Source of the DNA: an uncultured Acetatifactor sp.
GTDB taxonomy: Bacteria; Bacillota; Clostridia; Lachnospirales; Lachnospiraceae
Direction of reading: 5' to 3'
NCBI GenBank assembly: GCA_947594835.1
Contig: CANQEH010000008.1
Span: forward strand, 39,587 to 103,586
DNA length: 64,000 nucleotides
Shown here: positions 14,109 through 50,314 of the stretch, piece by piece
Layout of the letters: each line of letters starts with the position of its first letter
How positions within the stretch are numbered: the first letter of the stretch is position 1
Position numbers and translations under genes: made by a program
Notes under the pieces: generated by a model
Databases searched by the model: none
The model's input: only the letters and a program-made list of their open reading frames with translations
Told to the model about the DNA's origin: nothing

Positions 14109-14480
14109 ATGACCTTTAATACAGGCGCAGCCCTTCTGGACGCCATTGTGCTTGCCGTTGTGTCCCAGACCCCCGACGGCACCTATGGGTACAAGATCAC
14201 CCAGGAGGTCCGGCAGGTCATCGAGCTGTCGGAGTCAACGCTCTACCCGGTGCTGCGGAGACTGCAGAAAGACGAGTGCCTGGAAGTGTACGACATGGAG
14301 TGTGCGGGCAGGAACAGACGGTATTACAAGGTGACCAGCAGAGGATGGGCACAGCTGAAGCTCTACGAGAGCGAGTGGCGGCAGTACGCCGAGAAGATCA
14401 CGGGGCTGTTTGAGGGACGGATGCAGTTTTCCGCAGACGCAGATGAGAGAAAGGACAGCACAGAGTGCAGGGAGCGGTGA
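14109..14480 (+). CDS. PadR-family transcriptional repressor
   Basis: A 123-residue winged-helix protein. The PadR core is clear: ILAV-like first helix (LDAIVLAVVSQ), PDGTYGYKITQEV, STLYPVLRRLQKDECL and YYKVTSRG for the wing. It begins with ATG after AGGAGG. It lies directly after two AT-rich dyads over its own promoter, so autoregulation is likely. Its stop is separated by one base from the DUF1700 gene, and DUF4097 follows. This PadR-DUF1700-DUF4097 set is a common Firmicutes envelope or stress module whose physiological signal is usually unknown. Confidence 0.92.
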   Translation: MTFNTGAALLDAIVLAVVSQTPDGTYGYKITQEVRQVIELSESTLYPVLRRLQKDECLEVYDMECAGRNRRYYKVTSRGWAQLKLYESEWRQYAEKITGLFEGRMQFSADADERKDSTECRER

Positions 14481-14481
14481 A

Positions 14482-15174
14482 ATGGGCAGAGATGAATTTA
14501 TGAAGCAATTGGAGCGCTTGCTGCAGAATCTTCCTTCCGCGGAGCGGGAGGCGGCGCTGCAGTACTACAACGATTATTTTGACGACGCCGGGGCGGAGAA
14601 TGAAAAAGAGGTGATCGAGGCGCTGGGGAATCCGGCCCGAGTGGCGGAAAACATCAAGCGGGACTTAAACGGAACAGCCGAGGGAGACCGGGCAAAGGGC
14701 GGCAGCCGGGCGCTGGTGGAATACGGGAAAGATGTGCCGGAGGGCGGCGGGGAAGGCGGCCAGGGCACGGCGGAAAAAAAGAGCGGTTCCACGCTGCCCA
14801 CCTGGGCCATTGTGCTTCTTGTGGTGCTTCTGGTTCTGGCTTCCCCGGTTCTTCTGGCCATAGGGGCCAGCGCCCTGGCGATGCTCATCGGCATTGTGGT
14901 CACCTGGGCGGCCTTGATCTTTGCATTTGGCGTGACGGCGCTTGCCCTGCTGGCAGCGTTTGGAGTGCTGGCGGTGGTGGGGATCTGGTGTATAGCGGCT
15001 GATCCTTTGATCGGCGCAGGCGTGATCGGATGCGGTCTGATCTGCGGGGGCGTGGGGCTTTTGTTCTTTCTGCTCACCACAGCCATGGGCGGCATGGCGA
15101 CCCCTGCCATCTGGAAGGCGGTCATGGGACTTTTTCGCAAAAAAACACCTGCGAAAGCGCACAAGGGGGTATAA
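14482..15174 (+). CDS. DUF1700 (HAAS) membrane protein
   Basis: A 230-residue protein. The N-terminal helical part FMKQLERLLQNLPSAERE...YYNDYFDDAG and EVIEALGNPARVAENI is the DUF1700/HAAS signature. A glycine- and charge-rich linker (residues about 75-100) leads to four hydrophobic segments. It starts one base after the padR stop, so it is co-translated with the regulator. Family members sit next to PadR regulators and DUF4097 proteins and probably form a membrane complex with them. The direct function is unknown. The 98-bp repeat begins at its last two bases. Confidence 0.85.
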   Translation: MGRDEFMKQLERLLQNLPSAEREAALQYYNDYFDDAGAENEKEVIEALGNPARVAENIKRDLNGTAEGDRAKGGSRALVEYGKDVPEGGGEGGQGTAEKKSGSTLPTWAIVLLVVLLVLASPVLLAIGASALAMLIGIVVTWAALIFAFGVTALALLAAFGVLAVVGIWCIAADPLIGAGVIGCGLICGGVGLLFFLLTTAMGGMATPAIWKAVMGLFRKKTPAKAHKGV

Positions 15175-15270
15175 GATTGAAAATTAAAATTTTCAATCGC
15201 GAGATTTGTGTCCGCGCGCTGCTTGACACAAACTCGTTATGCGCAAAGAGCAGCGCGGAAATGAGGTATA
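15173..15270 (+). repeat. 98-bp direct repeat, copy 1, carrying the RBS of the DUF4097 gene
   Basis: Identical over all 98 bases to 16434-16531. In order it has a 24-bp AT-rich dyad (15175-15198), stem A (15201-15212 with 15225-15235), stem B (15215-15223 CGCGCTGCT with 15249-15257 AGCAGCGCG), then AATGAGG as Shine-Dalgarno. The left arm of stem B lies in the loop of stem A, so the two are either mutually exclusive or form an H-type pseudoknot. The element ends 3 bases before the ATG at 15274. Confidence 0.95.
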
Positions 15271-15273
15271 GAG

Positions 15274-16272
15274 ATGAAAAAAATGATGAAAATATGCGCC
15301 GTGACCGCGGTGGCGCTGATTGCGCTGGGGATGGTGCTGGCCCAGACGGCAAAAGCGGCGCGGGGCAGCGCCCGGATTTCCCAGGTGGTAGCCCAGGCCA
15401 CAGACGGGCGTCTGGACTTGCAGCTGGGAAACGGGCAGAACGGGATCTGGGGCATTTACTGGAACGGCCCGGCAGACTGGGATGGGGCGGAAAGCCATGA
15501 GACGGACGTCACCCATGAGACGGACAGCCAGCAGCACGGGGAACTGCATCACGGCGAAAGCGCAGGGCAGGCTCCGGCGGGAAGCGAGTCCTTCGACCCG
15601 GAGCAGGTGAGAGATCTCGCCGTTCAGGCGGGGGGCTGCATCTTTGAAATGGAAACTTCCCCGGACGGGCTCTTTTATGTGACGGCGGAGGGGGTCCGGA
15701 AATTCCGGTGCTATCTGGAGGAGGGAACTCTGCACATCGAAGCGGAGGACGCCCGGGTGGGCATCGGCATCGACACAAGCGCCATCGGAACCGTCACCCT
15801 GTATGCGCCGGAGGGGCACAGCTATGGGGAGGTGGAGATGGAAGCGGGGGCCGGCACGGTGTATGTAAACGGCCTGAAGGCTGGGGAAGTCTCCCTGGAG
15901 GCAGGGGCGGGCGTCATCGAGGCTAAGGATATCCAGGCCCGGGAGATGGAGCTCTCCGTAGGCGCGGGGCAGATCTCGCTCTACGGGATGGATGTAGAGT
16001 CCCTGGATGCGGAGACCGGCCTGGGCGAGCTGACCGCCCGGGGCAGGATCGGCGCAGACGCCAGCCTGGCGTGTTCTATGGGAAATATAGAGCTGGAGCT
16101 GGAGGGCAGCCAGCAGGACTTTAACTATCGGCTGGAAGCCGCCGCCGGGGAGATCGAACTGGGGACGGAGCACTGCAGCGGCCTGGCCAGCGAGCGGTGG
16201 ATCGACAACGGGGCGGGGAAGACGCTGGAGGCGGAGTGCGCCATGGGCAGCATCCAGATCCTCTTTCAATGA
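15274..16272 (+). CDS. Exported DUF4097 (adhesin-like) beta-helix protein
   Basis: A 332-residue protein with an N-terminal membrane segment or signal (KKMMKICAVTAVALIALGMV). The C-terminal 180 residues show the repetitive DUF4097 pattern: short beta strands with gains such as VEMEAGAGTVYVNGL, VSLEAGAGVIEAKDI and MELSVGAGQISLYGM, predicted to build a right-handed beta solenoid. The middle has a His/Glu/Asp-rich linker (residues about 75-110). It is third in the PadR-DUF1700 operon and probably acts at the outer face of the membrane with DUF1700. Its ribosome binding site lies entirely within copy 1 of the 98-bp repeat. Confidence 0.85.
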   Translation: MKKMMKICAVTAVALIALGMVLAQTAKAARGSARISQVVAQATDGRLDLQLGNGQNGIWGIYWNGPADWDGAESHETDVTHETDSQQHGELHHGESAGQAPAGSESFDPEQVRDLAVQAGGCIFEMETSPDGLFYVTAEGVRKFRCYLEEGTLHIEAEDARVGIGIDTSAIGTVTLYAPEGHSYGEVEMEAGAGTVYVNGLKAGEVSLEAGAGVIEAKDIQAREMELSVGAGQISLYGMDVESLDAETGLGELTARGRIGADASLACSMGNIELELEGSQQDFNYRLEAAAGEIELGTEHCSGLASERWIDNGAGKTLEAECAMGSIQILFQ

Positions 16273-16433
16273 TCCTGCCGCTGGCCCGGTAAAAAAGATG
16301 TATTCTGGCACTTTTCACCATGCCATACTTACCTTATACTGGCGTAAGACAATACAGCCATCCCGGAGGGAACGCCGGCGTCAGTACACAAGCCCTCCGC
16401 TGATGCGGGAGCCGCTTCAGGCGGCAGAAGGAG
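16273..16433 (+). promoter_or_regulatory. Structured 5' leader of the ECF S-component gene
   Basis: A -10-like TATACT (about 16336) is followed by a GC-rich segment with GGAGGGAA, then GCCCTCCGCTG, GCGGGAGCC and the hairpin GCCGCTTCAGGCGGC, ending in AGAAGGAG. The order resembles part of the cobalamin riboswitch core, but the conserved B12 box is not seen. The terminal AGAAGGAG looks like an older ribosome binding site now separated from the gene by the 98-bp repeat. Confidence 0.45.
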
Positions 16434-16531
16434 AAGATTGAAAATTAAAATTTTCAATCGCGAGATTTGTGTCCGCGCGCTGCTTGACACAAACTCGTTA
16501 TGCGCAAAGAGCAGCGCGGAAATGAGGTATA
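16434..16531 (+). repeat. 98-bp direct repeat, copy 2, carrying the RBS of the ECF gene
   Basis: A perfect second copy of 15173-15270 with the same dyad, interlocked stems and AATGAGG. It ends 3 bases before the ATG at 16535. It directly follows AGAAGGAG, as if inserted between an existing Shine-Dalgarno site and its start codon. Confidence 0.95.
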
Positions 16532-16534
16532 AGC

Positions 16535-17500
16535 ATGGGAAAAGGAAAGAACCAGGAAAAAGAAAAGGATCAGGATAAGAAGCAGGACAGAAAGCAGGAA
16601 AAGAAAAAGAGCTACGGGTTATTGGTGATCGGCGCGGTGCTTTTGCTGGCAGGGCTTTTGGCCGCGGTGCTCACCTATCACAGCAGCTACCGCGCCTCCC
16701 TGGAGACGGGAAGCGCCTTAAGCGACGTAAAGGAGAAGATAAGCGCCGTCAAGGAGGGCGGGGCGGAAGGAGACTTAAACGCCCTGCAGGAGCAGGCGGA
16801 TCAGCTGTCCACCGAAAAACTGGCGCAGGAGCGGCCCTACTCTTACAGCCTGATCGCGGTGTTTTTTGCGGTGCTGCTCACCGGGAAGGGCATTGTCAAT
16901 GCGGTGTTTGGAAGAACCGCCGTCTCCTTCGACGTGAAGCGGCTGGCCATGGCAGGCCTTCTGGCGGCCTTGTGCTACATCGGGTTTGCGGTCTTTAAGA
17001 TTGACATCCCTGTGGGGACGGAGAAGACCTCCTTCCACTTCGGGAATGTGTTCTGTGTGCTGGCGGCGCTTTTGCTGGGCGGTTACTGGGGAGGGCTTGC
17101 CGGTGCGGTGGGCATGACCATCGGGGATCTGACCACTTCCTATGTGACCAGCGCCCCCAAAACCTTTCTGTTAAAGCTCTGCATCGGCCTGATCGTGGGG
17201 CTGGTGGCGCACAGGGTCTTCAAGCTCTCCAAGGACCACTCCGGCCGGTATGTGACCGGCGCCGTCATCGTTTCCTGCGTATGCGGCATGGCCTTCAACG
17301 TGGTGGCAGATCCGGTGGTGGGATATTTTTACAAGACCTATCTGCTGGGCGTGCCCCAGAGCGTGGCCTCCGCCCTGGCAAAGATCGCCACGGTGACCAC
17401 TGCCGTCAACGCGGTGGTGGCGGTGGTGGCGGCCTCCGTCTTTTATCTGGCCCTGCGCCCCGCCCTGCGCAAAGCCGGGCTGTTTCCCGACGCCGTGTAA
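16535..17500 (+). CDS. ECF transporter S component (specificity unknown)
   Basis: A 321-residue membrane protein. Residues 1-28 are a Lys/Gln-rich cytoplasmic tail, then a membrane segment, a heptad-like charged region (about 55-95) and six or so helices. The block FHFGNVFCVLAALLLGGYW followed by GGLAGAVGMTIGDL is the substrate-binding-component signature (PF07155/FolT-like region). S components bind a vitamin or metabolite and dock onto a shared EcfA/A'/T module, which is not encoded here. The N-terminal extension is unusual for the family. Leader structure and the 98-bp repeat suggest RNA-level control. The ligand cannot be named. Confidence 0.75.
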   Translation: MGKGKNQEKEKDQDKKQDRKQEKKKSYGLLVIGAVLLLAGLLAAVLTYHSSYRASLETGSALSDVKEKISAVKEGGAEGDLNALQEQADQLSTEKLAQERPYSYSLIAVFFAVLLTGKGIVNAVFGRTAVSFDVKRLAMAGLLAALCYIGFAVFKIDIPVGTEKTSFHFGNVFCVLAALLLGGYWGGLAGAVGMTIGDLTTSYVTSAPKTFLLKLCIGLIVGLVAHRVFKLSKDHSGRYVTGAVIVSCVCGMAFNVVADPVVGYFYKTYLLGVPQSVASALAKIATVTTAVNAVVAVVAASVFYLALRPALRKAGLFPDAV

Positions 17501-49206: not shown

Positions 49207-49255
49207 GTTCAAAAACGCCTGCCCGTCCTGGCGCAGCGCAGAAAAGAGGAAAGCC

Positions 49256-50314
49256 ATGATTAAGGTTGGCATCATCGGAGCAACCGGCTACGCCGGCGCG
49301 GAACTGGTTCGGCTCCTGCAGGGACACAGGGAAGCCCGGATCGTCTGGTACGGCTCCAGAAGCTACATAGATAAAAAGTACAGCGAGGTTTACCGGAATA
49401 TGTTCCGGATCGTGGAGGACGTCTGCCGGGACGACGACTTAGCGCAGCTTGCCCGGGAGGCGGACGTGATCTTTACCGCCACGCCCCAGGGCTTTCTGGC
49501 AGGCCTTTTGACGGAAGAAATCCTCTCCCGGACAAAGGTGGTGGATCTTTCCGCAGACTATCGGATCAAGGATGTGGCGGTCTATGAGAAATGGTACGGC
49601 ATCGAACACAAGTCCCCCCAGTTCATCCCGGAGGCGGTCTACGGGCTCTGTGAGATCAACAGGGGACAGATCACCGATCAGACCAGGCTGGTGGCCAACC
49701 CGGGCTGTTACACCACCTGTTCCATCCTGACCGCGTACCCTCTGGTGAAGGAGGGGTTGATCGACCCGGACACGCTGATCATCGACGCCAAATCCGGCAC
49801 CTCCGGCGCAGGACGGGGAGCCAAGGTACAGAACCTGTTCTGCGAGGTCAATGAGAACATCAAGGCTTACGGCGTGGCCACCCACCGCCATACCCCGGAG
49901 ATCGAGGAGCAGCTGGGCTATGCCAGGGGAAGCCGTGTCACCGTCAGCTTCACCCCCCATCTGGTTCCCATGAACCGGGGGATTCTGGTGACGGAGTACG
50001 CCCGCCTGACGCCAAAGCCCGACGGCAGCCTGCCCACGCCGGAAGAGATCCGGGCCGTCTATGAAAAATACTACGGAAACGAGCTTTTCATCCGGCTGCT
50101 GGAGGAGGGCGTCTGCCCCGAGACCCGCTGGGTGGAGGGCAGCAATTATGTGGACATCAATTTTGTGGTGGATGAGCGCACCGGGCGCGTTGTGCTGATG
50201 GGCGCCCTGGACAATCTGGTCAAGGGAGCCGCAGGCCAGGCGGTGCAGAACATGAACCTGCTGTTTGGCCTGCCGGAAGACGAAGGCTTAAAGCTGGCCC
50301 CCTGCTTCCCGTAG
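49256..50314 (+). CDS. argC: N-acetyl-gamma-glutamyl-phosphate reductase
   Basis: A 352-residue NADPH-dependent reductase, third step of arginine synthesis. The dinucleotide loop is VGIIGATGYAGAELVRLL. The active-site cysteine lies in VANPGCYTTCSIL. GTSGAGRGAKVQNLFCEVN and RHTPEIEEQLGYA are typical. ATG 49256 has AGAGGAAAG before it. It is first in argC-GNAT-argJ-argB-argD, with two candidate promoters upstream. The reductase length is normal. Confidence 0.97.
   Translation: MIKVGIIGATGYAGAELVRLLQGHREARIVWYGSRSYIDKKYSEVYRNMFRIVEDVCRDDDLAQLAREADVIFTATPQGFLAGLLTEEILSRTKVVDLSADYRIKDVAVYEKWYGIEHKSPQFIPEAVYGLCEINRGQITDQTRLVANPGCYTTCSILTAYPLVKEGLIDPDTLIIDAKSGTSGAGRGAKVQNLFCEVNENIKAYGVATHRHTPEIEEQLGYARGSRVTVSFTPHLVPMNRGILVTEYARLTPKPDGSLPTPEEIRAVYEKYYGNELFIRLLEEGVCPETRWVEGSNYVDINFVVDERTGRVVLMGALDNLVKGAAGQAVQNMNLLFGLPEDEGLKLAPCFP

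Follow-up and report, generated by a model that had tools for sequence, protein, structure and literature searches.

A repeat found just before start codons in Lachnospiraceae: a probable mobile element carrying its own translation-initiation module

Why would two unrelated genes be preceded by exactly the same 98 bases, ending in both cases three bases before the start codon? The question is raised by a stretch of 64,000 nucleotides (hereafter the window) from the genome of an uncultured Acetatifactor sp. (assembly GCA_947594835.1, contig CANQEH010000008.1, positions 39,587 to 103,586), a genus placed in the Lachnospiraceae by the NCBI taxonomy. A sequence-only reading of the window had noted the repeated element and offered two alternatives, a mobile ribosome-binding-site (RBS) cassette or a new cis-regulatory RNA. 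Our analysis suggests that both apply together, the element being mobile and also having a conserved RNA fold. Specifically, we consider it a probable non-autonomous mobile repeat that inserts between the Shine–Dalgarno (SD) motif and the start codon of a gene and brings along its own initiation module, a reading to which we assign a probability of about 0.72. The features concerned, all on the forward (+) strand of the window, are the following.

15163..15169, +: AAGGGGG, a purine-rich stretch left of copy 1, likely the old SD of the DUF4097 gene
15173..15270, +: element copy 1, a 97-bp unit plus one shared base, ending 3 nt before the ATG at 15274
15175..15198, +: left AT-rich palindromic hairpin of copy 1, GATTGAAAATT-AA-AATTTTCAATC
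15199..15266, +: core of copy 1, predicted H-type pseudoknot followed by the SD (model R1, 97.7 bits)
15200..15236, +: span of stem A of copy 1
15200..15203 with 15233..15236, +: outer pairs of stem A, CGAG/CTCG
15205..15212 with 15225..15232, +: inner pairs of stem A, TTTGTGT(C)/(G)ACACAAA
15212..15258, +: pseudoknot stem B of copy 1; bulged register 15212..15217 plus 15220..15223 with 15249..15258
15215..15223 with 15249..15257, +: stem B of copy 1 in the straight register
15258..15270, +: right end of copy 1, GAAATGAGG (its own SD) plus TATA
15274..16272, +: gene for a DUF4097 protein (PF13349), downstream of copy 1
16428..16433, +: AAGGAG abutting copy 2, likely the former SD of the ECF S-component gene
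16434..16531, +: element copy 2, with the same sequence as copy 1, ending 3 nt before the ATG at 16535
16436..16459, +: left hairpin of copy 2, by identity with copy 1
16460..16527, +: predicted pseudoknot core and SD of copy 2 (model R1, 97.7 bits)
16535..17500, +: gene for an ECF riboflavin-type S component (PF07155), downstream of copy 2

Much of the earlier description holds. The two copies match over all 98 bases, each ends three bases before its ATG, the 24-bp dyad has 11-nt arms around a 2-nt centre, the arms CGCGCTGCT/AGCAGCGCG and TTTGTGTC/GACACAAA are in place, and AGAAGGAG stands directly before copy 2. The repeat unit itself is 97 rather than 98 bp long, since a tandem array elsewhere in the genome has a period of 97 bases; the 98th base is shared context.

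The source genome (G000; 2.76 Mb in 47 contigs, 97% complete) contains 21 BLAST matches to the element at E ≤ 0.001, of which 19 are 98–100% identical and two are diverged (75%), a copy number far beyond chance. The near-identical copies occupy 17 sites, one of them the tandem of three with the 97-base period, and the flanks of the dispersed copies are unrelated. Copies identical to the window element are present in G083, an uncultured Acetatifactor metagenome-assembled genome of the same genus, and BLAST with the 98 bases retrieves relatives from 36 of 101 genus genomes. Model R1, a covariance model derived from 52 distinct cores with stem A as its sole structure, detects relatives in 47 of the 299 genomes searched from the Lachnospiraceae, a large bacterial family common in guts; nearly all of these genomes are from different genera. 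Fourteen copy-rich genomes, selected for carrying many copies, have 12–71 R1 matches each at E ≤ 0.001, and the source genome has 35, 22 of which were read. A 10-kb locus (L215, G098:C16:48000-58000) has four diverged copies, and as two of these stand before near-identical gene starts, the genes there look duplicated. At the class level R1 matched five of 291 genomes, three being the source genome or members of the same family; the two matches from outside are weak (E 4.2e-5 and 6.5e-4), one (L255) preceding an ATG and the other (L258), probably a chance match, lying deep in a 286-codon frame. Among the genomes searched, the element family appears to be almost confined to one bacterial family. 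Viral contigs gave no exact match to the left hairpin, and plasmids none. In a phage collection 18 of 50,697 records matched, all 'Bacteriophage sp.' from human faecal samples; four of these records, MT838294, MT836618, MT836374 and MT837311 (L341–L344), are labelled as unverified and show genes of bacterial appearance downstream of the element, and are hence probably mislabelled bacterial DNA.

Sites with and without an insert bear on mobility. In one close pair of genomes, G081 is filled and G001 empty at two sites with matching flanks. Comparison of L155 with its empty counterpart L196 (AACAGAAAGGCAGGYAAT^RTTATG) places the insertion 3 nt before the ATG, while L158 against L202 (GCAGAAGGGAGA..^..AAATGG) concerns a different cassette type and falls in a run of A, which makes the insertion point ambiguous by a few bases. 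At both clean empty sites the insertion lies between the SD and the start codon, and two further pairs (L160/L203 and L027/L189) are consistent with insertion, if less exact. No clear target duplication was seen at the compared filled and empty sites, nor an inverted repeat beyond 6 nt linking the element ends. Orthologues of the two window genes, examined at 29 loci per gene (drawn from larger sets of 95 and 91 matching genomes), are too diverged for base-level alignment and inform on presence or absence only: the element stands at the site of the ECF gene in one of 29 loci (L105 of G099, in a deletion form described below) and, diverged, at that of the DUF4097 gene in one of 29 (L138 of G010, with a GAGG-to-ATG gap of 10), a further weak match (L152) lying inside an apparent upstream coding stretch. 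Insertions are also stacked. In L022 a diverged older copy stands upstream and a fresh copy nearest to the ATG, and other cassette types are stacked likewise in L168 and L169. Near-identical dispersed copies, unrelated flanks, tandem stacking, species-specific sites and empty orthologous sites together support the mobility that the two window copies had suggested.

How closely is the element tied to start codons? Position was analysed at 169 loci with 185 R1 matches (183 distinct), comprising the best matches returned by the searches and regions hand-picked from hit lists, a set that favours well-conserved copies. An ATG frame directly follows 153 of the 183 distinct matches, that is, an ATG lies 3–16 nt on and its frame has a length of 40 codons or more (20 where a contig end cuts it off), compared with 2,025 of 30,279 control positions (6.7%), and the GAGG-to-ATG gap is 5–8 nt in 146 of the 153. 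By eye, the remaining 30 comprise 12 upstream members of tandem or mixed arrays, seven matches before an ATG with a frame below 40 codons, two before GTG, four split by an inserted hairpin and five without a start at the usual distance. Copies inside genes or far from starts had been named in advance as evidence against a translational role; such exceptions proved few, the five start-less matches being the part that does not fit. Of the 183 matches, 49 lie within an open frame of at least 120 codons running at least 60 nt past both ends on either strand (controls, 1,885 of 2,330), most of them still precede an ATG at the usual distance, and one (L258) appears by eye to be deep in a gene. Single genomes show the same spacing: the 34 junctions read in G099 have a gap of 7 in 24 cases and of 6 in four, with five tandem and one without an ATG, and the 15 in G083 have a gap of 7 in five, 6 in seven and 5 in two, with one tandem.

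The two sides of the insert differ in precision. At the 17 sites of the source genome the right end is 3 nt from the ATG in 15 cases, 4 in one and 2 in one, whereas the old SD-like motif lies 0–10 nt from the left end (mode 4, 8/17), which corresponds to standard deviations of 0.34 on the right and 2.20 on the left. With the flanks rejoined, the SD-to-ATG spacing is 6–8 nt at 13 of the 17 sites. Ten copies selected for short frames (L014, L019, L025, L056, L061, L066, L074, L351, L356 and L358) likewise stand 3 nt before an ATG, one that opens only 4–29 codons; at most of these sites longer frames begin further on. These ATGs may belong to unannotated leader peptides or small proteins, or mark sites picked by sequence alone. 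As the spacing is kept there, selection for expression of a long gene may not explain it everywhere; together with the tighter distance on the right, this is suggestive, if not proof, of targeting rather than selection alone.

The element consists of a left end, a core and a right end. Among 179 distinct stretches upstream of the core, a left palindromic hairpin is present in 98 (controls, 1.3% of 1,244) and is missing from the other 81, old copies among them. Its feet vary yet stay complementary (GATTG/CAATC in 54, GTGTG/CACAC in nine, GAGTG/CACTC in seven, GGTTG/CAACC in four), and an SD-like motif of at least four bases lies just left of it in 84 of the 98 (control, 27.5%). The right end is GAAATGAGG plus 3–4 nt. 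Between the two, covarying stems support an H-type pseudoknot. Over the 52 distinct cores 88.3% of 1,075 cells are paired, nine of 21 pairs have changed on both sides, and the covariation score was reached by none of 500 shuffles; sliding the fold by 1–3 columns reduces pairing to 29–48%. The clearest covarying pair, column 15–63, reads UA in 25 cores, CG in 16 and UG in seven. In some relatives the stems are preserved although their sequence differs (GCGCAC/GTGCGC, CGCGGC/GCCGCG), and extra hairpins in the loops leave the stems intact in L085, L091, L156, L159 and L160. Copy 1 folded without pseudoknots reaches −33 kcal/mol (z −3.14). The layout proposed from the window alone needs only partial revision: the stems are interlocked, stem A extends further outward by CGAG/CTCG, and stem B has two possible registers, the bulged 10-bp one pairing 88.3% of cells and the straight one 84.9% in the 52 relatives. 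The SD, in contrast to the earlier notion of a pseudoknot over the RBS of riboswitch type, is unpaired in the predicted fold, 3' of the pseudoknot, and the downstream genes are unrelated; that notion is not supported. When the comparison is extended to 86 distinct cores (after removal of 36 of the 185 rows for length or N), the evidence is weaker for most stem B columns; three of the columns, 15–59 and two upper ones with a fitted register, exceed the letter-frequency expectation by 7–14 points. A swapped-pair test of stem B (native at least 6 bp in 74/108, swapped 62%) suffered from faulty segment extraction and is uninformative because both strands are conserved.

A naturally shortened form bears on what is needed for movement. 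G099 has 11 copies (10 of them exact, the other with one mismatch) of a form with an internal deletion, in which the left hairpin is joined to the right end at a single junction, with no stem A; none occurs in the other 100 genus genomes. Seven precede an ATG at the usual distance and three are upstream tandem members. The best reading is that the deletion form spread as such, the alternative being a repeated identical deletion, and on that reading the pseudoknot is likely dispensable for movement. In G016 another cassette type has a copy with a similar deletion (L205). The same left hairpin also stands with other bodies before ATGs in G043, G074, G016 and G081. By eye, a loop of such cassettes could pair with the stretch before the SD (CTGCCG/CGGCAG in G016, GCGGGCAGC/GCTGCTCGC in G081), and folds without a pseudoknot exist too. 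In L157 and L158 (G081) the cassette right end apparently includes its own ATG (CTCGCAGCATGRGCACAAA), in L158 in frame with the native start. Yet another repeat type before starts (L168, L169, L024, L189) has a AAGTTTGAAAGTAAACTTTCAAACTT-like hairpin and a GGGGGTATA-like end, and in L168, L169 and L024 a window-type or related element lies between it and the ATG.

Taken together, the element would insert mostly three bases before an ATG, parting the gene's SD from its start codon, and its own SD, at a near-fixed distance behind the predicted pseudoknot, would replace that of the gene, which would thus stay translated. A trans-acting enzyme may recognise the left hairpin and the SD-like right end and pick sites of the form SD...NNN-ATG. 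The pseudoknot may be cargo acting in translation, either as a folded platform directly before the SD, which would shield initiation from the influence of the sequence further upstream, or by stabilising the 5' side of the mRNA; since the form lacking it seems able to move, it is presumably kept for such a role in the mRNA.

Several observations weigh against this interpretation. Clean empty-site pairs number only two, a further one (L083/L199) being complicated by a second cassette. In the 86-core set seven of ten stem B columns are at most 4 points above the letter-frequency expectation, and all six lower stem B pairs are canonical in 47 of the 86 cores. The five start-less matches are L222, which is followed by another cassette, L278, with an ATG 17 nt off, and L299, L258 and the second match of L246, with no ATG; one deletion copy (L330) likewise lacks a start codon at the usual distance, and in at least one of the ten short-frame sites (L061) a second ATG, 4 nt further along, opens a longer frame. 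The fetched loci contained no larger, autonomous version, and neither PF01797, PF00078 nor PF02371 has a match in the 97% complete source genome. Finally, the 3-nt rule could owe part of its sharpness to selection for a favourable SD spacing.

The last point leads to a possible, if rather unlikely, alternative, namely that a DNA transposase or recombinase hits purine-rich, SD-like DNA loosely, that insertions into genes are lost and that those left, with a good SD-to-ATG distance, merely mimic a 3-nt rule, the start codon itself not being read. The right end of the element (SD plus about 4 nt) does resemble the left flank (SD plus 4 nt in 8/17), and a GAGG-to-ATG gap of 5–8 nt is within the usual range for bacterial genes; however, the right distance is far tighter than the left, it is kept at the ten sites with 4–29-codon frames (some of which may be real small genes), and non-coding DNA remote from starts, which should tolerate an insertion, holds almost none of the copies seen. 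An improbable elaboration of start-codon targeting would have the site chosen via translation initiation itself: the target, a flexible-distance SD plus a start codon with the cut at the E-site codon 3 nt ahead of the ATG, corresponds to the signal that a 30S initiation complex reads. The element might then move as an RNA that enters mRNA at the ribosome, or through an enzyme guided by the same signal, and be fixed in DNA afterwards, so that self-contained, pseudoknotted initiation modules would spread genome-wide. As to the enzyme, movement by an IS200/IS605-like (Y1), an IS110-like or a retron- or group-II-like machinery agrees with the hairpin end and the lack of a clear target duplication, but is a weak and very unlikely proposal, given the missing matches in a genome with 19 near-identical copies. 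An IS200/IS605 derivative (Y1 transposase, PF01797), a reverse-transcriptase-based element such as a retron, group II intron or diversity-generating retroelement (PF00078) and IS110/IS1111 (Transposase_20, PF02371) were each rejected on this ground; among the 14 copy-rich genomes the three families were found in seven, eight and five, respectively.

Two further explanations concern expression rather than movement. A covarying H-type pseudoknot beside an SD, found across the family, would suit a translational riboswitch or the protein-binding leader of a regulon, with the pseudoknot sensing a ligand or regulator. We regard this as quite improbable, as the copies are near-identical within a genome, the SD is not paired and the pseudoknot-less form multiplied in G099. 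Moreover, the 12 downstream proteins scanned are unrelated: gatC, dapA, MetA, a MetQ/NlpA-like lipoprotein, a PatB-like lyase, two sugar aminotransferases, an ABC ATPase, an AMP-nucleosidase-like protein, the DUF4097 protein, the ECF S component and one without a match. Rfam, searched at a permissive threshold with the window stretch and with nine loci, gave nothing at the element; its only hits lay elsewhere in these sequences, were to unrelated families and were at chance level (E 0.51 and 0.034). Alternatively, the old SD might drive a short frame through the element, from the TTG in AGATTG, whose end couples to the gene, much as mycobacterial interspersed repetitive units (MIRUs) are said, in a passage of PMC12548453, to carry a coupled frame. 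Of 28 distinct copies with AGATTGAAA, 21 keep the TTG frame open as far as the SD, and in 14 of 54 copies it stops 5–11 nt before the ATG, yet the stop positions of these 54 are spread between −90 and +1215 relative to the ATG and each of the three frames is represented, lineages starting with GTGTGAAAA have, by eye, no TTG frame, and the element supplies its own SD; coupling thus seems very doubtful.

Some details of the surroundings may be added. From 14109 to 16272 the window carries consecutive genes for a PadR regulator, a HAAS-domain protein and the DUF4097 protein, and the stop codon of the HAAS gene overlaps the first bases of copy 1. In L330 (G099:C1) AAAAGG stands where NNNATG would be expected and is followed by a terminator-like stretch. 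A further feature of the window may be a trace of an older insertion:

49233..49249, +: possible decayed right-end remnant GCAGCGCAGAAAAGAGG (model R1, 16.2 bits, E 0.003)

It lies 6 nt before the ATG at 49256 of a semialdehyde-dehydrogenase-family gene, which we take to be argC-like.

The outcome of searching the source genome and other Lachnospiraceae is, then, a mixture of the two patterns originally set apart: the copies are scattered and near-identical, as in a mobile repeat, and they stand mostly before start codons with covarying stems, as in a regulatory RNA. If our interpretation is right, an apparently undescribed mobile element has, in some genomes, reshaped dozens of genes on their 5' side, where translation starts, offering a tractable case of a mobile element that recognises translation starts and a new conserved RNA fold for studies of initiation; annotation would be affected as well, the working SD being carried by the element. 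Narrow-term queries of the open-access PubMed Central literature turned up no description of the window repeat.

Several known systems share some of its properties. The preQ1 and SAM-II riboswitches have an H-type pseudoknot beside the SD, and that of the element adjoins the SD too; unlike in these, its SD lies outside the stems, the genes are unrelated, the copies are near-identical and mobile, and Rfam gives no match. Miniature inverted-repeat transposable elements and repetitive extragenic palindromic (REP)-type repeats are non-autonomous, short, apparently non-coding, dispersed and palindromic at an end. The element is likewise short, apparently non-coding and dispersed, one of its ends is palindromic, and it has a deletion derivative that multiplied, but its ends have no inverted repeat beyond 6 nt, there is no clear target duplication, it targets the translation start, and no parent transposase was found among the Y1 and IS110 families. 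The TAACTGA direct repeats of marine Beggiatoaceae, many of which are described in the relevant section of PMC4679880 as lying just upstream of start codons with a proposed translational role, likewise follow no pattern in downstream gene function; they are 7 nt long with little SD character, whereas the element is a 97-bp structured unit with an SD.

The closest known system is that of the MIRUs. The sections concerned in PMC12548453 and PMC2734929 present them as short dispersed repeats of 40–100 bp, with tandem copies, apparently mobile and inserted at start codons with little harm to the gene, and the element, too, is an apparently mobile dispersed repeat inserted at start codons. The likeness is one of description, and the phylum is a different one. 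As described there, the MIRU frame is coupled at −4 nt, which finds no equivalent in the scattered stops of our 54 copies; the element instead has its own SD behind a covarying pseudoknot, with a palindromic left hairpin, 3 nt upstream of the ATG. If our interpretation is correct, start-codon targeting, a question raised for MIRUs, would become directly testable.

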